Assembly (NCBI RefSeq): GCF_001984035.1
Contig: NZ_CP019449.1
Coordinates: forward strand, 2,480,001-2,544,000
DNA: 64,000 bases
Source of the DNA: Sphingopyxis sp. QXT-31
GTDB lineage: Bacteria; Pseudomonadota; Alphaproteobacteria; Sphingomonadales; Sphingomonadaceae
Reading direction: 5' to 3'
Part shown: positions 4,391-14,111 of the stretch, piece after piece
How positions within the stretch are numbered: the first letter of the stretch is position 1
Layout of the letters: every line of letters starts with the position of its first letter
Program-made: the position numbers and the translations under genes
The notes under the pieces: generated by a model
The model's input: the letters and a program-made list of their open reading frames with translations, nothing else
What the model was told of the DNA's origin: nothing
The model's database searches: none

Positions 4391-4457
4391 GTGTCGAGCG
4401 AAGTCGAGACACGTGAAGGCGCGCACGATGTCAGCGTGGCCCGACTTCGCTCGACAC
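4391..4457. repeat. Inverted repeat, family A (GTGTCGAGCGAAGTCG)
   Basis: GTGTCGAGCGAAGTCG at 4391-4406 is mirrored perfectly by its reverse complement at 4442-4457, making a 16-bp stem with a 35-base loop. It lies between the convergent ends of the YbjN gene and the beta-helix gene. A second, longer copy is at 10479-10556. No T-run follows, so it is not a typical intrinsic terminator. Confidence 0.9.
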
Positions 4458-5535: not shown

Positions 5536-6636
5536 CTATTCCTCGGTGCGTATGAGGATCATCTCGCCGATCAGCGCGAAGAGGATGAAGGGCCCCCACG
5601 CCGCGAGGAAAGGCGAGTAGGCGCCGAGATCGCCCATCGCGAGCGCAAAATTGTCGGCGACGAAATAGGCGAAGCCCAGCGCCATGCCCAGAATGGCGCG
5701 CACGAAGAGCTTGCCCGACCGCGCGAGGCCGAACGCCGCGACCGCGCCGAGCAGCGGCATCAGGATCGCCGACAGCGGCCCTGAAATCTTGTGCCAGAGC
5801 ACGCCCTTGAGCGCGCTGACCGGGCGGCCCGCGGCTTCGAGTTCGTCGATCGCGCTCTTGAGTTGGAGGAAGGGCAGTTGGTCGCCCTTGACCTGCGCCA
5901 GGGTGAACTGGTCGGGGGCAACGCCCTTGGCCGCGACGATCGTGCCCAGCGGCTGGGTCGTGCCCGAGCGGCGGATGAAGCGCCGCGCATTGGTGAGTTC
6001 CCAGCCGCCGTCGACCGCGCGCGCGCTGTCGGCCGACAGGATCGACGACAGCACTCCGCCGGTGCGTTCGTAGATCTTGACCCCGGTCAGCCGCACCACC
6101 GGCCCACCGGTCTCGACCGTCGTCGCGTTGATCAGGTCGTCGCCCGCGCGCACCCAGATGTTGCTGCGCACGCCGTTATCGGGCGGCACCTGCGCATATT
6201 GCACCTTCTGCCACGCCGCGAGCGAGGCGGTAGCGCGCGCGACGATGCGTTCGTTGAAGGCAAAGCTGATCCCTGCCACCAGGAACGCCGCCAGGAACAA
6301 GGGCGCCAGCACCTGGTGCGCCGACATGCCCGCGCCCTTCATTGCGATGACCTCGCTGTTCTGGTTCAAGGTCGCGAGCGTCAGGATGGTGCCCAGCAGC
6401 ACCGAAAAGGGCAGGAAGGTCTCGATGATCTGCGGGATGCGGAGCCCCACATAGCGCCACACCTCGGCATCGCCATTGCCCGCCACCGCCAGGATCTTGC
6501 CGCTCTCGCCGAGCAGGTCGAGCGTCTGGAGGATCAGCACCAGCGCGAACAGGATCGCGAAGGTGCGGACGAGGAACAGCCGCCCGACATAGAGAGCCAT
6601 CGTGCGCGAGGGGAAAAAAGCGAGCGCGTGCATCAT
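5536..6636 (-). CDS. lptG: LPS export ABC transporter permease LptG
   Basis: A 366-residue membrane subunit of the LptB2FG complex that extracts LPS from the inner membrane and feeds it to the Lpt bridge. It has three N-terminal helices (including LVRTFAILFALVLILQTLDLL), a periplasmic beta-jellyroll domain from about 140 to 270, and three C-terminal helices with HKISGPLSAILMPLLG. The start is set by the ATGA overlap with lptF: ATG at 6636-6634 shares bases with the lptF stop at 6635-6633, so longer frames running back into lptF are rejected. Gene order lptF-lptG is the standard one. Sphingomonads are known for replacing LPS with glycosphingolipids, which makes the cargo here an open question. 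Confidence 0.93.
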   Translation of the reverse strand: MMHALAFFPSRTMALYVGRLFLVRTFAILFALVLILQTLDLLGESGKILAVAGNGDAEVWRYVGLRIPQIIETFLPFSVLLGTILTLATLNQNSEVIAMKGAGMSAHQVLAPLFLAAFLVAGISFAFNERIVARATASLAAWQKVQYAQVPPDNGVRSNIWVRAGDDLINATTVETGGPVVRLTGVKIYERTGGVLSSILSADSARAVDGGWELTNARRFIRRSGTTQPLGTIVAAKGVAPDQFTLAQVKGDQLPFLQLKSAIDELEAAGRPVSALKGVLWHKISGPLSAILMPLLGAVAAFGLARSGKLFVRAILGMALGFAYFVADNFALAMGDLGAYSPFLAAWGPFILFALIGEMILIRTEE

Positions 6637-7856
6637 TCGGCCGCCTGCAGCGCCGCCAACGGCTTGCGCTGGAACATCTTGGCGAATCCGCGGATCTTCT
6701 GCCCGGCCTTGGCCGCGACGCGTTCGAGCGCGCCGATCGGCTGCCCGCCCGGCACATGCGCGGTCTGGTAATACATCCACACCGCCAGCGCCGCGAACAG
6801 CAGGAAGGGCACCCACAGGGCGATCAGCGGATCGACGGTGCCGCGCGCGCCCATATCCTCGGCATATTCGTTGATCTTGTGCTGGGTCACCAGCAGCACG
6901 ATCGACAGGAAGATGCCGAGCGACGAGGTGGACCTCTTGGGCGGGATGGCGAGCGCGATCGCGATCAGCGGAATCAGGAACATCGAGGCGACCTCGACGA
7001 TCCGGAAATGGAAATTCGCCCGCGATTCGAGGCGGGTCTTCAACGGTTCGCTGCTGTCCTTGCCCGCCACGAACAGTTCGGGAATCGTCTTTTCGCGGTC
7101 GGCGCCGCCGCGGGTGCGAAAGGCATCGATCTTGGGCAGCGGGATCGGCAGGTCGTGATTGTCGAAGGTCAGGACGCGCGGCACCGCGAATTTGGGCGAT
7201 TCGTGGATCAGCACGCCCTTGGTCAGTCGCAGGATGATCGTGTCGGGGTCGTCGGTGGCGAGGAACTGGCCCCCGGCCGCGGTCGCCGACACTGCCTGCC
7301 CGTCCTTCTGCTCGCCGCGCACGAAGATGCCGCGCAGCGTGCGCCCCTCGTTCGCGCTTTCCTCGATGCGCAGCGTCATCCGCTCGCCGAGGTTGGTGAA
7401 TTCGCCGACCTTGATCGACGCCCCGAGCGCGCCCGAGCGCAGTTCGAACTGCAGCCCTTCATAGGCGTAGCGCGCATAGGGCTGGATGAAGCCGACGATC
7501 GCAAGGTTGAGCAGCGCAAGCGCGATCGCATAGGCATAGGGCACGCGCAGCAGTCGCCCGAAGCTCATGCCGACGCCCTTCAGGACGTCGAGTTCGCTCG
7601 ACGTCGCGAGGCGGCGAAAGGCCAGCAAGATGCCCAGCATCAGCCCGATCGGGATGCCGAGCGAGAGATATTCGGGGATCAAATTCGCCAGCATGCGCCA
7701 CACGACGCTGACCGGGCCGCCCTCGGTCGCGACGAAATCGAACAAGCGGAGCATCTTCTCGAGCACGAGCAGCATCGCCGACAAAACCAGCGTGCCGAGC
7801 ATGGGGAAGAAGATGAGCCGCGATATGTAGCGGTCGATGGCGGGCAATCTATTCAA
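6633..7856 (-). CDS. lptF: LPS export ABC transporter permease LptF
   Basis: A 407-residue partner of LptG. N-terminal helices (FPMLGTLVLSAMLLVLEKMLRL; IPIGLMLGILLAFRRLATSSELDVLKG, the coupling-helix region), a periplasmic domain about residues 125-285, and C-terminal helices (ASMFLIPLIAIALAIPPKR) reproduce the family layout. The C-terminus extends about 35 residues past the last helix with a basic tail (KAGQKIRGFAKMFQRKP). The upstream 120 bases up to the divergent DUF2141 gene should hold the promoter for lptFG; I see no convincing motif there. Confidence 0.93.
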   Translation of the reverse strand: MNRLPAIDRYISRLIFFPMLGTLVLSAMLLVLEKMLRLFDFVATEGGPVSVVWRMLANLIPEYLSLGIPIGLMLGILLAFRRLATSSELDVLKGVGMSFGRLLRVPYAYAIALALLNLAIVGFIQPYARYAYEGLQFELRSGALGASIKVGEFTNLGERMTLRIEESANEGRTLRGIFVRGEQKDGQAVSATAAGGQFLATDDPDTIILRLTKGVLIHESPKFAVPRVLTFDNHDLPIPLPKIDAFRTRGGADREKTIPELFVAGKDSSEPLKTRLESRANFHFRIVEVASMFLIPLIAIALAIPPKRSTSSLGIFLSIVLLVTQHKINEYAEDMGARGTVDPLIALWVPFLLFAALAVWMYYQTAHVPGGQPIGALERVAAKAGQKIRGFAKMFQRKPLAALQAAE

Positions 7857-7976
7857 GCTTTCGTCGCCCTATTACCATGATTTGGCCGCAAATGATTCCG
7901 ATATGCCGAAGCAAGGGCGACAGGGACCCATGCCGGCTTGGCTGGCATGGCTATAGCCACTGGGAGCTAATGCGTC

Positions 7977-8450
7977 ATGTCGAAATTTGTGTCGACTTCA
8001 CTCTGTTTCATTCTGCTGGCGGCCTCCGTGCCTGCCAATGCGGAAGGACAGGTCTTGTCGAACGATCTGTCGAAATGCCGGAGCGGCCCGTCGACGCTGG
8101 TCCAGATCAACGGCCTGAAGGCCGGGTCGGGCAAGGTGCGCGTGCAGAGTTATCGCGCGAATGCCTCGGATTGGCTGGCGAAGGGCCGCTGGATCAATCG
8201 TATCGAAGTGCCGGCGCGCGCCGGGTCGATCACCGTCTGCGTGCCGCTGCCCGCTTCGGGCAGCTATGGCATCGCGGTGCGCCACGACGTCAACGGGAAC
8301 GGCAAGACCGACCTGTCCTCGGACGGCGGCGGCATGTCGAACAACCCCAGCATCAACATCTTCAACCTCGGCAAGCCGAGCTACAAGAAGACCGCCTTTG
8401 CGGTCGGCGATGCGCCGAAAACGATCTCGATCACCATGAAATATATGTAA
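7977..8450 (+). CDS. DUF2141 exported protein
   Basis: A 157-residue protein with a signal peptide (KFVSTSLCFILLAASVPANAEG) and one DUF2141 domain, recognised from VQINGLKAGSGKVRVQSYRA, the GSYGIAVRHDVNGNGKTD turn and the C-terminal KKTAFAVGDAPKTISITMKYM. Family members are small periplasmic or outer-membrane-associated beta proteins of unknown function. Its importance is its position: it is the first gene of a three-gene unit, with only six bases to the lipid kinase that follows and ten more to the Tam41-like nucleotidyltransferase. That linkage hints at a role in lipid handling, which is inference only. Confidence 0.85.
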   Translation: MSKFVSTSLCFILLAASVPANAEGQVLSNDLSKCRSGPSTLVQINGLKAGSGKVRVQSYRANASDWLAKGRWINRIEVPARAGSITVCVPLPASGSYGIAVRHDVNGNGKTDLSSDGGGMSNNPSINIFNLGKPSYKKTAFAVGDAPKTISITMKYM

Positions 8451-8456
8451 GGGTAT

Positions 8457-9431
8457 ATGGCCAGCGTCGCGCTCCTTTCCAATCCGCGCTCGACGGGCAA
8501 CCGTGCCCTGTTGCCGCGCGTCCGGGAATATTGCGCCGCGCATCCCGATATCTTTCATTACGAGGTCGAGGACGTCGCCCAGATCGGCGAGGCGATCCGC
8601 ACCATCGCGATGGTCAGCCCGCGCATCGTCGTGATCAACGGCGGCGACGGCACCGTCCAGGCGGCGCTGACCGAGCTTTATTCGGGCGGCCATTTCGACG
8701 GCACGCCGCCGCCGGTCGCGGTGCTGCCCAACGGCAAGACCAATTTGATCGCGCTCGATCTCGGCGCCGAGGGCGACCCGCTGAAGGCGCTCGAACGCGT
8801 GATCGAACTGGTCGAAGCCGGCCGGCTCGAGGATCATGTGATCCAGCGCCAGCTGATCTCGCTCGACAGCGGCGGCGAAGCACGGCCGGTGCTCGGCATG
8901 TTCCTCGGCGGCGCCTATCTCGCCGACGTGATGCTCTATTGCCGCAACCGCATCTATCCGCTCGGCTTGCCCAACGGCGTATCGCATTTCCTCGCGGCGA
9001 TGCTCGGCCTCTTCGCGATGGTGCTCGGCCTCGGCGGCGGGCGGCTGCCGCCCAAGCCCGAGGCGATGACCGTGTCGCTGATCCGCCAGGGCGAGTTCAA
9101 GGGCAAATTCTCGCTGCTGATCGTCACCACGCTCGAGAAACTGCTGCTCAGCATCCGCACCAGCGAAGCGCATGGCACCAACGGCCATATGAAATTGCTC
9201 GCGACCGACACCAGCGTCGGCGCGCTGTTCCGCATGCTCGGCGGCGCGTGGCGCGGTACGCTCGGCCAGCGCCCGCTCGACGGCGTGCATTTCGAGCAGG
9301 GCGACGAGATCCGCATCGAGGGCCGGCGCTCGAACGTCATCCTCGACGGCGAGATTTTCGAGTCGATCGGCGGCAAGCCGATCGTGCTCACCTCGACCCA
9401 GCCGGTGCCCTTCCTGCGCCTTGCCGCCTGA
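8457..9431 (+). CDS. Diacylglycerol-kinase-family lipid kinase
   Basis: A 324-residue protein of the DAGK/sphingosine-kinase/YegS superfamily, which phosphorylates lipid hydroxyls with ATP. The N-terminal catalytic domain shows SNPRSTGN (residues 8-15), the nucleotide-binding NGGDGT (61-66) and LPNGKTNLIALDLG in place of the usual GTANDFA segment; the C-terminal beta domain carries ILDGEIFE with the conserved DGE. There is no signal peptide; a hydrophobic stretch (MLGLFAMVLGLGGG, about 181-196) may contact the membrane. The substrate cannot be read from sequence: diacylglycerol is the default, but a ceramide-like lipid is possible given the serine palmitoyltransferase 3 kb away. Tight spacing to both neighbours argues for one transcript. 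Confidence 0.87.
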   Translation: MASVALLSNPRSTGNRALLPRVREYCAAHPDIFHYEVEDVAQIGEAIRTIAMVSPRIVVINGGDGTVQAALTELYSGGHFDGTPPPVAVLPNGKTNLIALDLGAEGDPLKALERVIELVEAGRLEDHVIQRQLISLDSGGEARPVLGMFLGGAYLADVMLYCRNRIYPLGLPNGVSHFLAAMLGLFAMVLGLGGGRLPPKPEAMTVSLIRQGEFKGKFSLLIVTTLEKLLLSIRTSEAHGTNGHMKLLATDTSVGALFRMLGGAWRGTLGQRPLDGVHFEQGDEIRIEGRRSNVILDGEIFESIGGKPIVLTSTQPVPFLRLAA

Positions 9432-9441
9432 AGGCACCACC

Positions 9442-10305
9442 ATGTCCGACAGCCTGGCCGATCTGGTCCGCGCCGAACTTTCCACCCCGGTCGATCCGCG
9501 CGCCAAGGCGATGGCCGCGGCGATCGCGGCGCAATATCCCGGCTCGGCGCGCGCGGTCCTTTTCTACGGCAGCTGCCTGCGCGAAAGCGAACTCGACGGG
9601 CTGATGCTCGATTTCTACCTGATCGTCTCGGACTATGGCGACGCCTATGACCGGCGCTGGATGGCGGCGGCGAACCGGCTGATCCCGCCCAATGTCTTCC
9701 CCTTCCAGCACGAGGGGCTTATCGCCAAATATGCCGTGCTGAGCGAGGCCGACTTCGACCGGCTCAACGGCCCCGAGACCCGCAACGTGTCGGTCTGGGC
9801 GCGCTTTGCCCAGCCCTCGCGGCTGGTGTGGAGCGTCGACGACACCGCCACCGACCGCGCCATCGCCGCGGTTGCGCGCGCCACGCCAACGCTCCTCGCG
9901 GCCGCTGGCCGCGTCGAGGGCGAGGATGTCCTCGACTGGTGGCGCCGCGCCTTTTCGCTGACTTACTCGGCCGAGCTCCGCGCCGAGCGCAGTGGCCGCG
10001 CGCAGTCGGTTGTCGACGCCGATCCCGATCGCTACCGCCGCTTCGGCCCGCCCGCGATCGCCGCGATCCCGGCCAATGCCAGCAGCGGCGGCTGGCCGCG
10101 CCGCCGCCTCGAGGGCAAGGCGCTCAGCATCGTCCGCCTCGCCAAGGCCAGCCTGACCTATGCCGGCGGGATCGATTATCTCGCGTGGAAGATCAATCGC
10201 CACGCGGGCACGAAGATCGAGATCAAGCCCTGGCAGCGAAAATGGCCGCTGGTCGCGGCGCTAACGCTCGTGCCGCGGCTGATGAAGAGCGGGGCTATCA
10301 AATAG
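9442..10305 (+). CDS. Tam41-like lipid nucleotidyltransferase (putative CDP-DAG synthase type)
   Basis: A 287-residue soluble protein. It carries a nucleotidyltransferase G-S motif (FYGSCLRE, 41-48) and a downstream acidic strand MLDFYLIV (55-62). From memory, the order of segments matches mitochondrial Tam41/Mmp37 CDP-diacylglycerol synthase: G-S motif, M-x-D-F strand, LIAKYAVLS (93-101) like the Tam41 LIKYGVIS, WARFAQPSRLVW (119-130) like AGRLxKPVKI, and LTYSAELR (173-180) like LSYSGDxR. The family transfers CMP from CTP to phosphatidate. The gene upstream is a lipid kinase that could supply the phospholipid substrate. The assignment rests on remembered family sequences, not on a search; a different nucleotidyltransferase subfamily remains possible. 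The ATG at 9442 follows an 10-base gap after the kinase stop. Confidence 0.6.
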   Translation: MSDSLADLVRAELSTPVDPRAKAMAAAIAAQYPGSARAVLFYGSCLRESELDGLMLDFYLIVSDYGDAYDRRWMAAANRLIPPNVFPFQHEGLIAKYAVLSEADFDRLNGPETRNVSVWARFAQPSRLVWSVDDTATDRAIAAVARATPTLLAAAGRVEGEDVLDWWRRAFSLTYSAELRAERSGRAQSVVDADPDRYRRFGPPAIAAIPANASSGGWPRRRLEGKALSIVRLAKASLTYAGGIDYLAWKINRHAGTKIEIKPWQRKWPLVAALTLVPRLMKSGAIK

Positions 10306-10332: not shown

Positions 10333-10427
10333 GGCTATATAATATTCGCGCAGAGACGCAGAGACCGCGGAGAGGATGGCCTTTCCTCTCTGCGGTCTCT
10401 GCGTCTCTGCGCGCATTGATATAGCAG
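10333..10427. repeat. Inverted repeat, family B (CAGAGACGCAGAGA type)
   Basis: A near-perfect hairpin: GCGCAGAGACGCAGAGACCG from about 10348 pairs with CGGTCTCTGCGTCTCTGCGC ending about 10413, with a short loop near 10376-10384. Weaker pairing continues outward through CTATATAA on the left and GATATAGCA on the right. A related, A/T-substituted copy lies at 58343-58520. It sits 28 bases past the Tam41-like gene stop and lacks a T-run. Confidence 0.88.
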
Positions 10428-10478: not shown

Positions 10479-10556
10479 CGTTCGTGTCGAGCGAAGTCGA
10501 GACACGCTTGGAAAGCGCCGGCCTTCACGTGTCTCGACTTCGCTCGACACAAACGG
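10479..10556. repeat. Inverted repeat, family A (longer copy)
   Basis: A 23-base arm at 10484-10506 beginning GTGTCGAGCGAAGTCG is mirrored perfectly at 10528-10550; with one mismatch the stem extends outward through CCGTT on the left and AACGG on the right. It is the same element as at 4391-4457. Together with the family B hairpin it fills most of the 290-base gap between the convergent Tam41-like gene and the histidine kinase gene, where I see no gene. Confidence 0.9.
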
Positions 10557-10595: not shown

Positions 10596-12554
10596 CTAAC
10601 CGAACGCCGCGATCTTCTCCGCCGTCCGCGGTTCGGTGCTGCGCCTTATCGCCTGCTCGAGCTGGGTCAGCGTGAAGGGCTTCCGCAGCACGTCATGGTC
10701 GCCGAAGCTCGCGATCTCGCTCGCGTCGCCCGCGAAGCCGGTGACGAACAGCACTGCAATGTCGGGCCAGCGCGCCTTCAGCCCCGCGACCATCTCGGGC
10801 CCGGTGAGCTCGGGCATCAGCACGTCGGAGAGGATCAGGTCGAATTCCTGCGTCTCGACCAGCGCCGCGGCGGCGCGCGGATCGCTGCACGCGATGGTGC
10901 GGTGGCCGAGTTCCTCGACCGCATCGACCGTCGCCGCGAGCACGCGCAGATCGTCCTCGACGACCAGGATGTGCAGCGCCTGGCTCGCCGCCTCGGGCTC
11001 GGCGACCGGGGCGACGAGTTCGGGCTCTGCCGCCTCGACCGGGCGCGCGACGGGCAGCAGCATCGCGACGCGCGTCCCCTCGCCCTCGGTCGACGCGATC
11101 TGTACCTCGCCCCCCGACTGGCGGCAGAAGGCGAAGACCTGGCTCATGCCGAGCCCGGTGCCCTGCCCCGCGGGCTTGGTCGTGTAGAAGGGGTCGAAGA
11201 CGCGCTCGAGCACCTCGGGCGCCATGCCGCAGCCGGTGTCGATCACCTGCACCGCGAGTGCGCCGGCCTCCGTCTGCTCGTCGCGCAGCGTGCGGATCGT
11301 CAGCGCGCCATGGCCGTCCATCGCGTCGCGCGCGTTGACCGCGAGGTTGAGCAGCGCATTTTCGAACTGCTGGCGGTCGAGCCACGCGGCGAGTCCCGCG
11401 GCGCGCAGGTCGAGCGTCAGCGCGATGCGGTCGCCAATCGTGCGCTCGATCAGCTCGGCGAAGGAGGCGATGCTCTCGTCGACGACGATCATTTCGGGCC
11501 GCGCGGGTTCGGAGCGCGCGAAGGCGAGCAGGCGCCGCGTCAGGTCGGCGGCGCGGTTAGCGCCGTCCATCGCATTGCTCAAATGCCGCTGCGCCTTTTC
11601 GGGGGCATCGACTACCAGCCGCTGCGCCAGTTCGAGCCCGCCGACGACGACCGCGAGCATATTGTTGAAGTCGTGTGCGATGCCGCCGGTCAGCTGGCCG
11701 ACCGCCTCCATCTTCTGTGCCTGGCGCAGCTGCGCCTCGGCGGCCGCGCGGTCGGCCATCTCGCCGCGCAGCGCGACGTTGGCGCGCGCCAGTTCGGCGG
11801 TGCGCTCGGCGACCGCCGCTTCGAGCAGCGACGCTCGGTCGCTTTCGGCAAGCTGCTCGCGGCGCGCGAGGCGGCGCTCGCCCTCGGCGCGGACGAGCGA
11901 GAAGGTCGCGATAATCGCGATCAGCGCCGCGACCGCGCCGAGCAGCGAGAAGAGCAATATCGCCTGATTGAGGCTGTCGCGGTCCGACGCCGCGATCTGG
12001 TTGCGTTGGGTCAGGATCGCGCGTTCGTTGCGGATCAGGTCGCTCAGGATCCGGTCGATGCGGATCAGCGCCTCGTCGTGCCCCGCGGCATTATATTTCG
12101 AGATCGCCGCGACGGTCTGTCGGTAATTGGCGCTGAGCGCGGCATCGCCGAGCTGCGCGCCGCGGCGGTCGAATTCGGTGGTCAGTCTAGCAACCAGTTC
12201 AGCCTGCTCGGGATTGTCGCGCACTTTGCGTGTCAGCAACGTCAGATATTGGCGCGCGACGCCCCATTGCTGCTGATAGACGCGGCCGTCCTCCTTCTGC
12301 AATCCGACGGCGAAACGCCCGAGCGCCGCCTCGGCCCGCGCAAGCGAGGCGTCGAGCGAGCGCGTTTGCGAAATGACGTCCAGGCTGTGCGCCTGCCAGC
12401 CCAGAGAGCGGTCGTAATTGTCGTTGGCGCGCATGAGCAGCAGCACCAGCGCCGCGACGACGCCGGTCAGGATCGCGCCGACGCCGACCGTCAGCCAGAA
12501 GCGCAGCCGCTCCCGCCGATTGTCGTTTTCGCTATCATAATCCGCCTCGAACAC
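10596..12554 (-). CDS. Hybrid sensor histidine kinase with C-terminal receiver
   Basis: A 652-residue membrane kinase. Two membrane helices (about 19-41 and 198-222) bracket a helical periplasmic sensor that resembles CHASE3 in size and in features such as [17 protein letters not shown] coiled coil (225-285) leads into a HisKA domain with the phospho-accepting His294 in [11 protein letters not shown], a HATPase domain with the [13 protein letters not shown] N box and TGCGM and [10 protein letters not shown] boxes, and a receiver domain at about 525-645 with Asp577 (ILSDVLMP) and Lys in LRKPFT. No PAS domain and no separate response regulator are next to it. It lies 113 bases downstream of the serine palmitoyltransferase gene on the same strand, so cotranscription is possible. 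Confidence 0.88.
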
Positions 12555-12667: not shown

Positions 12668-13870
12668 TCAGCCGATAATGCCGACGCGCTTGCCCGCGCG
12701 CTCGAAGCGGCCCAGGATTTCGCCGACCTGCTCGCTCGAATGCTCGGCGCAGAGCGAGCAGCGCAGCAACGTCATGCCGGCGGGGGTCGCCGGCGGGCGC
12801 GCGAGATTGACGTAAAGCCCTTCCTCAAGCAGCGCTTCCCACATCATCGCGCCGCGTTCGAGGTCGGGCATGATGACCGCGATGATCGCCGATTGCGGCT
12901 CATCGGTGCCGAGCGTGAAGCCCAGGTCGCGGAGGCCCTTGTGCAGGTCCTTCGAATTTTCCCACAGATGCGCGCGCTTGTTCGAACCGTGCATCAGCTT
13001 GCGGATGCTCGTCGCCGCGGTCGCGACGACGCTCGGCGGCAGCGAAGCGGTGAAGACGTACGGACGGCAGACGAGGCGCAAAATCTCGAACTTCGGATGG
13101 TTCGAAACGCAGAAGCCGCCGACGGTGCCGACGCTCTTCGAAAAGGTTCCTATGATGAAGTCGACATCGTCGATGACGCCCTGCGCCTCGGCGACGCCGC
13201 GGCCGTGCTCGCCGATGAAGCCCATCGAATGCGCCTCGTCGACCAGCACCATCGCGCCATTCTCCTTGGAGACGCGGATCATCTCCTTGAGCGGCGCGAT
13301 GTCGCCGAGCATCGAATAGACGCCCTCGAGCACAACGAGCTTGCCCGCTTCGGGGGGCAGGCGCTTCAGCCTTTTCTCCAGCGCCTCGACGTCGTTGTGG
13401 CGGAAGGCGACGATTTCGGCGTTGCCCATCGCGCAGCCGTCATAGATCGAGGCATGGCTGTCGATGTCGAGGATGACATAGTCGCCCTTGCCCGCGATCG
13501 TGCTGATGATGCCGAGGTTCGCCTGATATCCGGTCGAGAACACCATGGCATGGTCCATGGCGTAGAATTCCTTGAGCGCGTCCTCGCACTCCTTGTGCCC
13601 CTGATAGGTGCCGTTGAGGACGCGGCTGCCGGTGGTGCCGCTGCCGAATTTGTCGAGCGCATCTTTGCCCGCGGCAATGACATCCGCGTCGAAGGTCATG
13701 CCCATATAATTATAGGTGCCGAGCAGGATCGTCTCGCGCCCGTTGCAGATCGCGACGGTCGGCGAGACCACGCGCTCCATCACCAGGCTGAACGGGTCGG
13801 TCACCCCGGTCGCGAGCAGATCCTCGCGCTGCTGGATCAGCGGGTCGAACTTGCTGAAAAGATCGGTCAT
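12668..13870 (-). CDS. spt: Serine palmitoyltransferase
   Basis: A PLP-dependent alpha-oxoamine synthase of 400 residues that condenses L-serine with palmitoyl-CoA (or acyl-ACP) to 3-ketodihydrosphingosine, the first committed step of sphingolipid synthesis. The PLP lysine is Lys245 in GTFSKSVGT; His139, Asp211 and His214 (DEAHSMG) align with the known active-site residues of the soluble Sphingomonas enzyme at a constant offset of 20. GSGTTGSRVLNGT (77-89) is the usual substrate loop. Discrimination from 8-amino-7-oxononanoate synthase or KBL rests on overall resemblance to the sphingomonad enzyme and on the adjacent acyl carrier protein, seven bases upstream, an arrangement known from the Caulobacter ceramide locus. 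Confidence 0.93.
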   Translation of the reverse strand: MTDLFSKFDPLIQQREDLLATGVTDPFSLVMERVVSPTVAICNGRETILLGTYNYMGMTFDADVIAAGKDALDKFGSGTTGSRVLNGTYQGHKECEDALKEFYAMDHAMVFSTGYQANLGIISTIAGKGDYVILDIDSHASIYDGCAMGNAEIVAFRHNDVEALEKRLKRLPPEAGKLVVLEGVYSMLGDIAPLKEMIRVSKENGAMVLVDEAHSMGFIGEHGRGVAEAQGVIDDVDFIIGTFSKSVGTVGGFCVSNHPKFEILRLVCRPYVFTASLPPSVVATAATSIRKLMHGSNKRAHLWENSKDLHKGLRDLGFTLGTDEPQSAIIAVIMPDLERGAMMWEALLEEGLYVNLARPPATPAGMTLLRCSLCAEHSSEQVGEILGRFERAGKRVGIIG

Positions 13871-13877
13871 GCGTGGC

Positions 13878-14111
13878 TCAGCCCTGCAGCTTTTCGACCG
13901 CGGCGATCAGCTGGCCGACGGTCTCGATCTCGGCCTGCATGTTCATGCTGATGATGATGTCGAAGGTGTCCTCGACCTCGGCGACGAAATCCATCACCGT
14001 CAGGCTGTCCCATTCGAGGTCGCCGGCAAAGGTCGTGGCGTCGGTCAGTTCGACGCCCTTCTTGTTGAACGGCGCAATCAGGCCGTGAATCTGGTCCGTG
14101 AGGCTGCTCAT
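13878..14111 (-). CDS. Acyl carrier protein of the sphingolipid locus
   Basis: A 77-residue acyl carrier protein. The 4'-phosphopantetheine attachment serine is Ser36 in the motif EWDSLTVMDF, close to the canonical DSL. It differs from housekeeping AcpP in its N-terminus (SSLTDQIHGLIAPFNKKGV) and in helix II. Placed seven bases upstream of the serine palmitoyltransferase gene and cotranscribed with it, it is probably the dedicated acyl donor carrier, as in the Caulobacter ceramide cluster. The other ceramide genes found in Caulobacter (acyl-ACP synthetase, ketosphinganine reductase, ceramide synthase) are absent from this window. Confidence 0.9.
   Translation of the reverse strand: MSSLTDQIHGLIAPFNKKGVELTDATTFAGDLEWDSLTVMDFVAEVEDTFDIIISMNMQAEIETVGQLIAAVEKLQG

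Follow-up and report, generated by a model that had tools for sequence, protein, structure and literature searches.

A lipid kinase and nucleotidyltransferase gene pair in Sphingopyxis sp. QXT-31 that appears to be the sphingomonad counterpart of Caulobacter cpgB-cpgC

Work with purified protein has shown that CpgB (CC_1160) of Caulobacter crescentus phosphorylates ceramide as a ceramide kinase (PMC10331486), and mutants in CC_1161 (CpgC) contain neither ceramide phosphoglycerate (CPG) nor CPG2, both of which are restored by complementation (PMC11324152). CpgA is required for CPG2 and not for CPG (PMC11324152), and CpgD makes cytidine diphosphate (CDP)-glycerate for the second phosphoglycerate, the addition of the first being independent of CpgD (PMC12275187). 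An InterPro domain on CC_1161 hints at a CDP-diacylglycerol (CDP-DAG) synthase, and the 2024 paper that mentions it proposes that CC_1161 may generate a nucleoside diphosphate (NDP)-activated ceramide and that LptF2/LptG2 of the cluster are sphingolipid exporters; it also reports cluster orthologues in Sphingomonas wittichii and Zymomonas mobilis (PMC11324152). The mechanism of CpgC is still termed unidentified in a 2025 paper (PMC12275187) and in a 2026 preprint. Here we describe a run of three genes within a stretch of 64,000 nucleotides of Sphingopyxis sp. QXT-31 (contig NZ_CP019449.1; hereafter the window), and compare its lipid kinase and nucleotidyltransferase genes with the Caulobacter pair. 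The three open reading frames (ORFs) lie on the + strand and, as the sequence-only reading of this DNA had stated, are separated by 6 and then 10 bases:

7977-8450, + strand: DUF2141 protein of 157 amino acids, first gene of the run (PF09912, E 1e-22); role unassigned.
8457-9431, + strand: lipid kinase of 324 amino acids, CpgB type, predicted ceramide kinase (PF00781, DAGK_cat, E 1.1e-13).
9442-10305, + strand: CpgC-type nucleotidyltransferase of 287 amino acids with a predicted Tam41 fold, predicted cytidine triphosphate (CTP):ceramide-1-phosphate cytidylyltransferase.

The second and third genes appear to be the sphingomonad counterpart of Caulobacter cpgB-cpgC (CC_1160 and CC_1161; CCNA_01218 and CCNA_01219), an assignment made from the gene order, the kinase tree and the published orthologue statements. 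We give a probability of roughly 65% to the reading that the pair is a version of cpgB-cpgC that makes CDP-ceramide via ceramide-1-phosphate and does not belong to a CDP-DAG route. In both organisms the kinase gene stands beside the nucleotidyltransferase gene, and spt and LptF/LptG genes are close. Unlike the Caulobacter cluster, the window has a DUF2141 gene before the kinase gene and a hybrid histidine kinase gene between the pair and spt, and CpgA was not found in the window genome. CpgD (CCNA_01210), a CTP:phosphoglycerate cytidylyltransferase, likewise serves ceramide phosphoglycerate synthesis, but it is of COG1213 type and acts on a soluble substrate (PMC12275187); no kinship with the window nucleotidyltransferase was apparent, no direct comparison having been made. 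The gene pair, the pathway and the activation idea are already published, and the opinion of the sequence-only reading that no bacterial system of this composition had been described does not hold: cpgB-cpgC is in print (PMC10331486, PMC11324152, PMC12275187), an NDP-activated ceramide has been proposed (PMC11324152) and CDP-DAG synthesis by a bacterial Tam41 has been described. Relative to the literature searched, two things are new: the modelling in favour of a Tam41-type fold, and the arrangement of the locus in sphingomonads. Four phrases for a CDP-ceramide-type intermediate occurred in none of 5.39 million papers, most subscription journals being outside this collection; the NDP-activated ceramide of PMC11324152 is worded differently.

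The window kinase carries the GGDGT motif, as the sequence-only reading had noted. The CxxxCxxC motif of eukaryotic ceramide kinases (PMC10331486) is absent from it, only two, distant cysteines being present in its 324 amino acids. It shares the DAGK_cat domain with GGDG with lipid kinases of the E. coli YegS/BmrU family, but its NCBIfam scores (27.7 bits or less) are far under every listed lipid-kinase cut-off; the CpgB clade is described as separate from YegS (PMC10331486). The PF00781 profile also matches in C. vibrioides, a named control genome. A tree was computed from 44 DAGK_cat proteins, comprising 26 cluster-type kinases (one of them that of the window, and four encoded by Sphingobium genes that lie apart from the nucleotidyltransferase gene) and 18 others from the window genome and sampled relatives; it contains no Caulobacter and no E. 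coli sequence, and omits L156 (contig stretch too short), four weak PF00781 matches and G123:C3. One branch separates all 26 cluster-type kinases from the 18 others, with a support of 100/99 and presence in 100% of 200 bootstrap trees, and the tree tool warns that long branches meet there. The 26 include the G456 kinase, which has no GGDG, while the second DAGK_cat protein of the window genome (L138) falls among the non-cluster kinases. The gene for this second protein, also without GGDG, adjoins metallophosphoesterase and NTP-transferase genes (L182, G000:C1:2374932-2378414), and the NTP-transferase is 37% identical to one from ceramide clusters; L182 is possibly another lipid or surface-glycan locus.

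The motifs that the sequence-only reading had quoted from the third protein, YGSCLRE, LDF, LIAKYAVLS, WARFAQPSRLVW and LTYSAELR, are all present. Residues invariant across 21 diverse homologues include Y42, G43, S44, D57, K96, W119, R121, Q124, P125, E178, R180 and E182. With two of the three active-site acid positions mapped in these homologues, D57 is invariant and the position two residues on is non-acidic. At E <= 10, the window protein has no match to PF09139 (Tam41_Mmp37), and the Pfam and NCBIfam scans gave no match to a profile of CdsA-type CDP-DAG synthases. Among 20 A2 members scanned, PF09139 was matched by L135 alone, and the best score in a relative was 23.1 bits against a cut-off of 24. 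The profile had no match in the window genome, a negative that carries little weight because none of 14 control genomes matched either; across Pseudomonadota, 1 of 398 genomes matched, below the cut-off, and again none of the 14 control genomes did. That sole match is the nucleotidyltransferase of L146 (G456, outside the class), which lies in a compact cluster of CerS-like, NTP-transferase, LptF/LptG-like, CpgA-like, kinase and nucleotidyltransferase genes. Searches of PDB sequences returned no Tam41, either with the single window protein (best 3m1t, E 0.56) or with profile A2 (best 9xbd_E, E 0.019).

Predicted models, compared by Foldseek, show the Tam41 fold, which consists of a nucleotidyltransferase domain and a winged-helix domain, and this is accordingly the fold predicted for the third protein. 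The resemblance to Tam41 that had been read from the motifs was supported by the predicted fold and not by the PF09139 profile, and the pairing of a lipid kinase with a Tam41-type nucleotidyltransferase is supported by Pfam for the former and by modelling for the latter. The Tam41 CDP-DAG synthases of known structure (S. pombe 6ig2/6ig4; Firmicutes 7ecd) are about 15% identical to the window protein, which differs from them in having no PF09139 match and in a gene set among sphingolipid genes. Because of this sphingolipid gene context, its lipid substrate is likely to be different from that of Tam41.

The nucleotidyltransferase family was found in 28 genomes, including that of the window, of an evenly drawn sample of 240 alphaproteobacterial genomes, with one strong match per genome. 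Within the family of the window organism, the nucleotidyltransferase was present in 91 of 119 genomes (the same number when that of L131 was used as an alternative query) and the kinase in 92. Both genes occur in 90 genomes, the nucleotidyltransferase without the kinase in one and the kinase without the nucleotidyltransferase in two. The kinase gene lies directly upstream on the same strand in 90 of the 90, at a distance between match ends of 6-561 bases (median 63), and because of this constancy the order of the two genes is not due to chance.

Individual loci were compared for their neighbouring genes, counting those with enough flanking sequence. The kinase gene is adjacent in 40/40 Sphingopyxis-type, 10/37 other sphingomonad and 21/24 class-wide loci, and a convergent spt gene lies within 3 kb in 34/35, 35/37 and 15/21, respectively. 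A DUF2141 gene is found at most 2.5 kb upstream of the nucleotidyltransferase gene in 39/39 Sphingopyxis-type loci (of 42), 7/36 other sphingomonad and 2/24 class-wide loci, and an LptF-type permease homologue is near the nucleotidyltransferase gene in 18/24 class-wide loci. The block lptF/lptG–kinase–nucleotidyltransferase–spt recurs across alphaproteobacteria. The class-wide loci were taken from 26 of the 27 other matching genomes, G163 being excluded for a match interrupted by the ends of two contigs. Counted from the family lists, 25/26 hold one or more additional genes of the spt, CerR, AasR, CpgA or CerS types, the remaining one being L115, at a contig end; spt is inside the fetched stretch in 20/26. 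Genes were named through Pfam and NCBIfam (spt, SDR, acyl-AMP ligase, CDP-alcohol transferase, acyl carrier protein, metallophosphoesterase and NTP-transferase). The 383-amino acid family F6, which has no Pfam or NCBIfam match at E <= 1e-5, is presumably CerS-like, a name that we gave it by its place only; when this family is dropped, other ceramide-lipid-type genes are found in 21/26 class-wide loci.

In the proposed pathway, the kinase would phosphorylate ceramide to ceramide-1-phosphate, as its orthology to the proven enzyme suggests. The nucleotidyltransferase, anchored perhaps by its basic C-terminus, would bind CTP-Mg in a Tam41-like pocket and, to judge from fold and context, join cytidine monophosphate (CMP) from CTP to ceramide-1-phosphate, releasing CDP-ceramide and pyrophosphate. 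On chemical grounds alone, a further transferase would then replace CMP by the head group, which on the Caulobacter precedent could be glycerate, and the neighbouring LptF/LptG permeases may aid export of the product. The sphingolipid gene linkage favours the CDP-ceramide-like intermediate that the sequence-only reading had offered as its second option. A wider proposal would make CDP-ceramide a liponucleotide branch point in alphaproteobacteria, formed by a Tam41-fold enzyme that feeds another transferase in sphingomonads devoid of CpgA and has a common origin with mitochondrial Tam41; the mitochondrion is an organelle of alphaproteobacterial derivation, and we regard the proposal as speculative and doubtful.

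Several observations weigh against the CDP-ceramide reading. The window nucleotidyltransferase matched neither a Pfam family (E <= 10) nor an NCBIfam family (E <= 1), and the Foldseek TM-scores were only 0.47-0.54, depending on the query. Orthology to cpgB-cpgC was assigned, in place of a direct alignment, from gene order, the orthologue statement for S. wittichii and Z. mobilis and the single strong match per genome. Among the 120 matches listed in each of two protein searches, with a query from G037 (named relatives Dongia) and with profile A3, no match that bears an organism name is from Caulobacter. No assay of CTP use or of CDP-ceramide formation by CpgC was found in the literature, and a glycerate transferase that would act after CDP-ceramide is not known. 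Finally, the kinase gene is not adjacent in 27/37 other sphingomonad loci, mostly Sphingobium, and in 3/24 class-wide loci (L128, L130 and L134).

Set against the refuting conditions of the sequence-only reading, the outcome is mixed: the PF09139 profile gave no match while the fold agrees, and the linkage is kept in most of the relatives sampled and lost in this split group. Here the figure of 90/90 overstates it because the sample of 119 family genomes evidently contains none of the group. The split sphingomonad loci are 26 that are mostly Sphingobium plus that of S. deserti, where the kinase gene is 3.8 kb from the nucleotidyltransferase gene. The kinase was present in 12/12 split-locus genomes searched (of 27 split loci). 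In Sphingobium, the nucleotidyltransferase gene keeps its distance of about 2 kb from spt and has no kinase gene within 10 kb upstream, and elsewhere in the genome the permease, DUF2141 and kinase genes stay grouped (6/6 loci checked, L139-L144). Since DUF2141 accompanies the kinase and the LptF/LptG permease gene even after the nucleotidyltransferase gene has separated, its role may lie in lipid export or at the outer membrane and not in activation.

The pair could instead consist of a diacylglycerol kinase and a true Tam41-like CDP-DAG synthase acting on phosphatidate, the sphingolipid neighbourhood being incidental. The closest folds of known activity produce CDP-DAG, as does a Firmicutes Tam41 (Kimura 2022, as cited in PMC11646218), and among the matches listed three relatives (P0036, P0124 and P0155) bear the UniRef name 'Phosphatidate cytidylyltransferase'. 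The family is nevertheless restricted to the 28 of 240 alphaproteobacterial genomes, despite the general cellular need for CDP-DAG. The other ceramide-lipid-type genes of the class-wide loci, which persist in most of them without the CerS-like family, speak against this explanation and also against a salvage or alternative route to CDP-DAG, the first choice of the sequence-only reading. In addition, CpgB phosphorylates ceramide (PMC10331486) and CpgC mutants lose CPG (PMC11324152), and we consider a CDP-DAG synthase quite improbable. A nucleotidyltransferase acting on some other target, such as a protein or, as the ANT enzymes do, an aminoglycoside, and linked by chance, is a very remote prospect, although ANT and MNT nucleotidyltransferases were the next fold matches after Tam41. 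Within ceramide metabolism, CpgC might put glycerate or phosphoglycerate directly on ceramide-1-phosphate, a model that PMC11324152 attributes to Zik and colleagues, perhaps from CDP-glycerate or another activated donor and with no free CDP-ceramide. It agrees with the absence of CPG from CC_1161 mutants and with the statement that no other CPG transferase is known (PMC11324152), and the 2025 and 2026 papers leave the mechanism open. Such a reaction is, however, described as energetically not very favourable (PMC11324152), CpgD, the maker of CDP-glycerate, is dispensable for CPG (PMC12275187, PMC11324152), and a Tam41 fold, as predicted here, would favour nucleotidyl transfer from CTP. Direct attachment therefore seems unlikely to us.

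The sphingomonad pair might also have been diverted to a head group that is not phosphoglycerate, a minor possibility. A query of the type of CpgA, the CDP-alcohol transferase of the pathway, had no match in the window genome, in a search that had no positive control there, and the frames that hold the three CDP-alcohol transferase domains of that genome are 199, 304 and 238 amino acids long, in comparison with 372-460 in ten CpgA-type ORFs. Against this, the 304-amino acid frame weakly matches one CpgA-type ORF (34% over 65 residues, E 9e-06), Z. mobilis is likewise without CC_1159 (PMC11324152), and Caulobacter CpgA serves CPG2 and not CPG (PMC11324152). If the pair makes CDP-ceramide, as we prefer, another transferase must complete the head group because no CpgA was seen in the window genome, and the role of CpgA in Caulobacter leads one to expect CPG or some other single head group. 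CpgC is the step termed unidentified in the two latest pathway papers found, and the predicted fold makes this step directly testable. Sphingomonads are known for glycosphingolipids that replace lipopolysaccharide, and the conserved pair predicts that they make phosphosphingolipids too. These have already been expected for S. wittichii and Z. mobilis (PMC11324152).

The features that surround the run in the window are the following:

5536-6666, - strand: LptG-type permease (TIGR04408, 302.5 bits, cut-off 240).
6633-7856, - strand: LptF-type permease, divergent neighbour of the run (TIGR04407, 263.8 bits, cut-off 230).
7857-7976: presumed control region, 120 intergenic bases separating the divergent lptF and DUF2141 genes, delimited by the gene ends.
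10596-12554, - strand: hybrid histidine kinase (CHASE3-HisKA-HATPase-REC, from Pfam), between the gene pair and spt.
12668-13870, - strand: serine palmitoyltransferase (spt), first enzyme of sphingolipid synthesis (NF047603, 814 bits, cut-off 670).
13878-14111, - strand: acyl carrier protein-like ORF of 77 amino acids, AcpR-like, upstream of spt; it groups with family F3.

The start of the LptG-type permease is not fixed, its open frame extending to 6816. No sigma-70-like site was found on the + strand of 7857-7976, and the N-terminus of the DUF2141 protein, judged by eye, resembles a signal peptide. The sphingolipid genes that had been placed 3 kb away are represented by spt, at a distance of 2.4 kb from the nucleotidyltransferase gene, and one member of family F3 is a PP-binding protein (PF00550). 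The Sphingobium L045 gene in the same place as the hybrid histidine kinase is 48% identical to it, and the family is also found at that place in L054, L075 and L078; a role in sensing envelope lipids is possible. Directly downstream of the nucleotidyltransferase gene, 10344-10416 holds an inverted repeat with 33-nt arms. It is the second repeat of this region, the other being a REP-like palindromic pair of GTCTCGACTTCGCTCGAC found at 10486-10548 and 4393-4455 of the window, with 4 matches at up to 2 mismatches against 0.02 expected.

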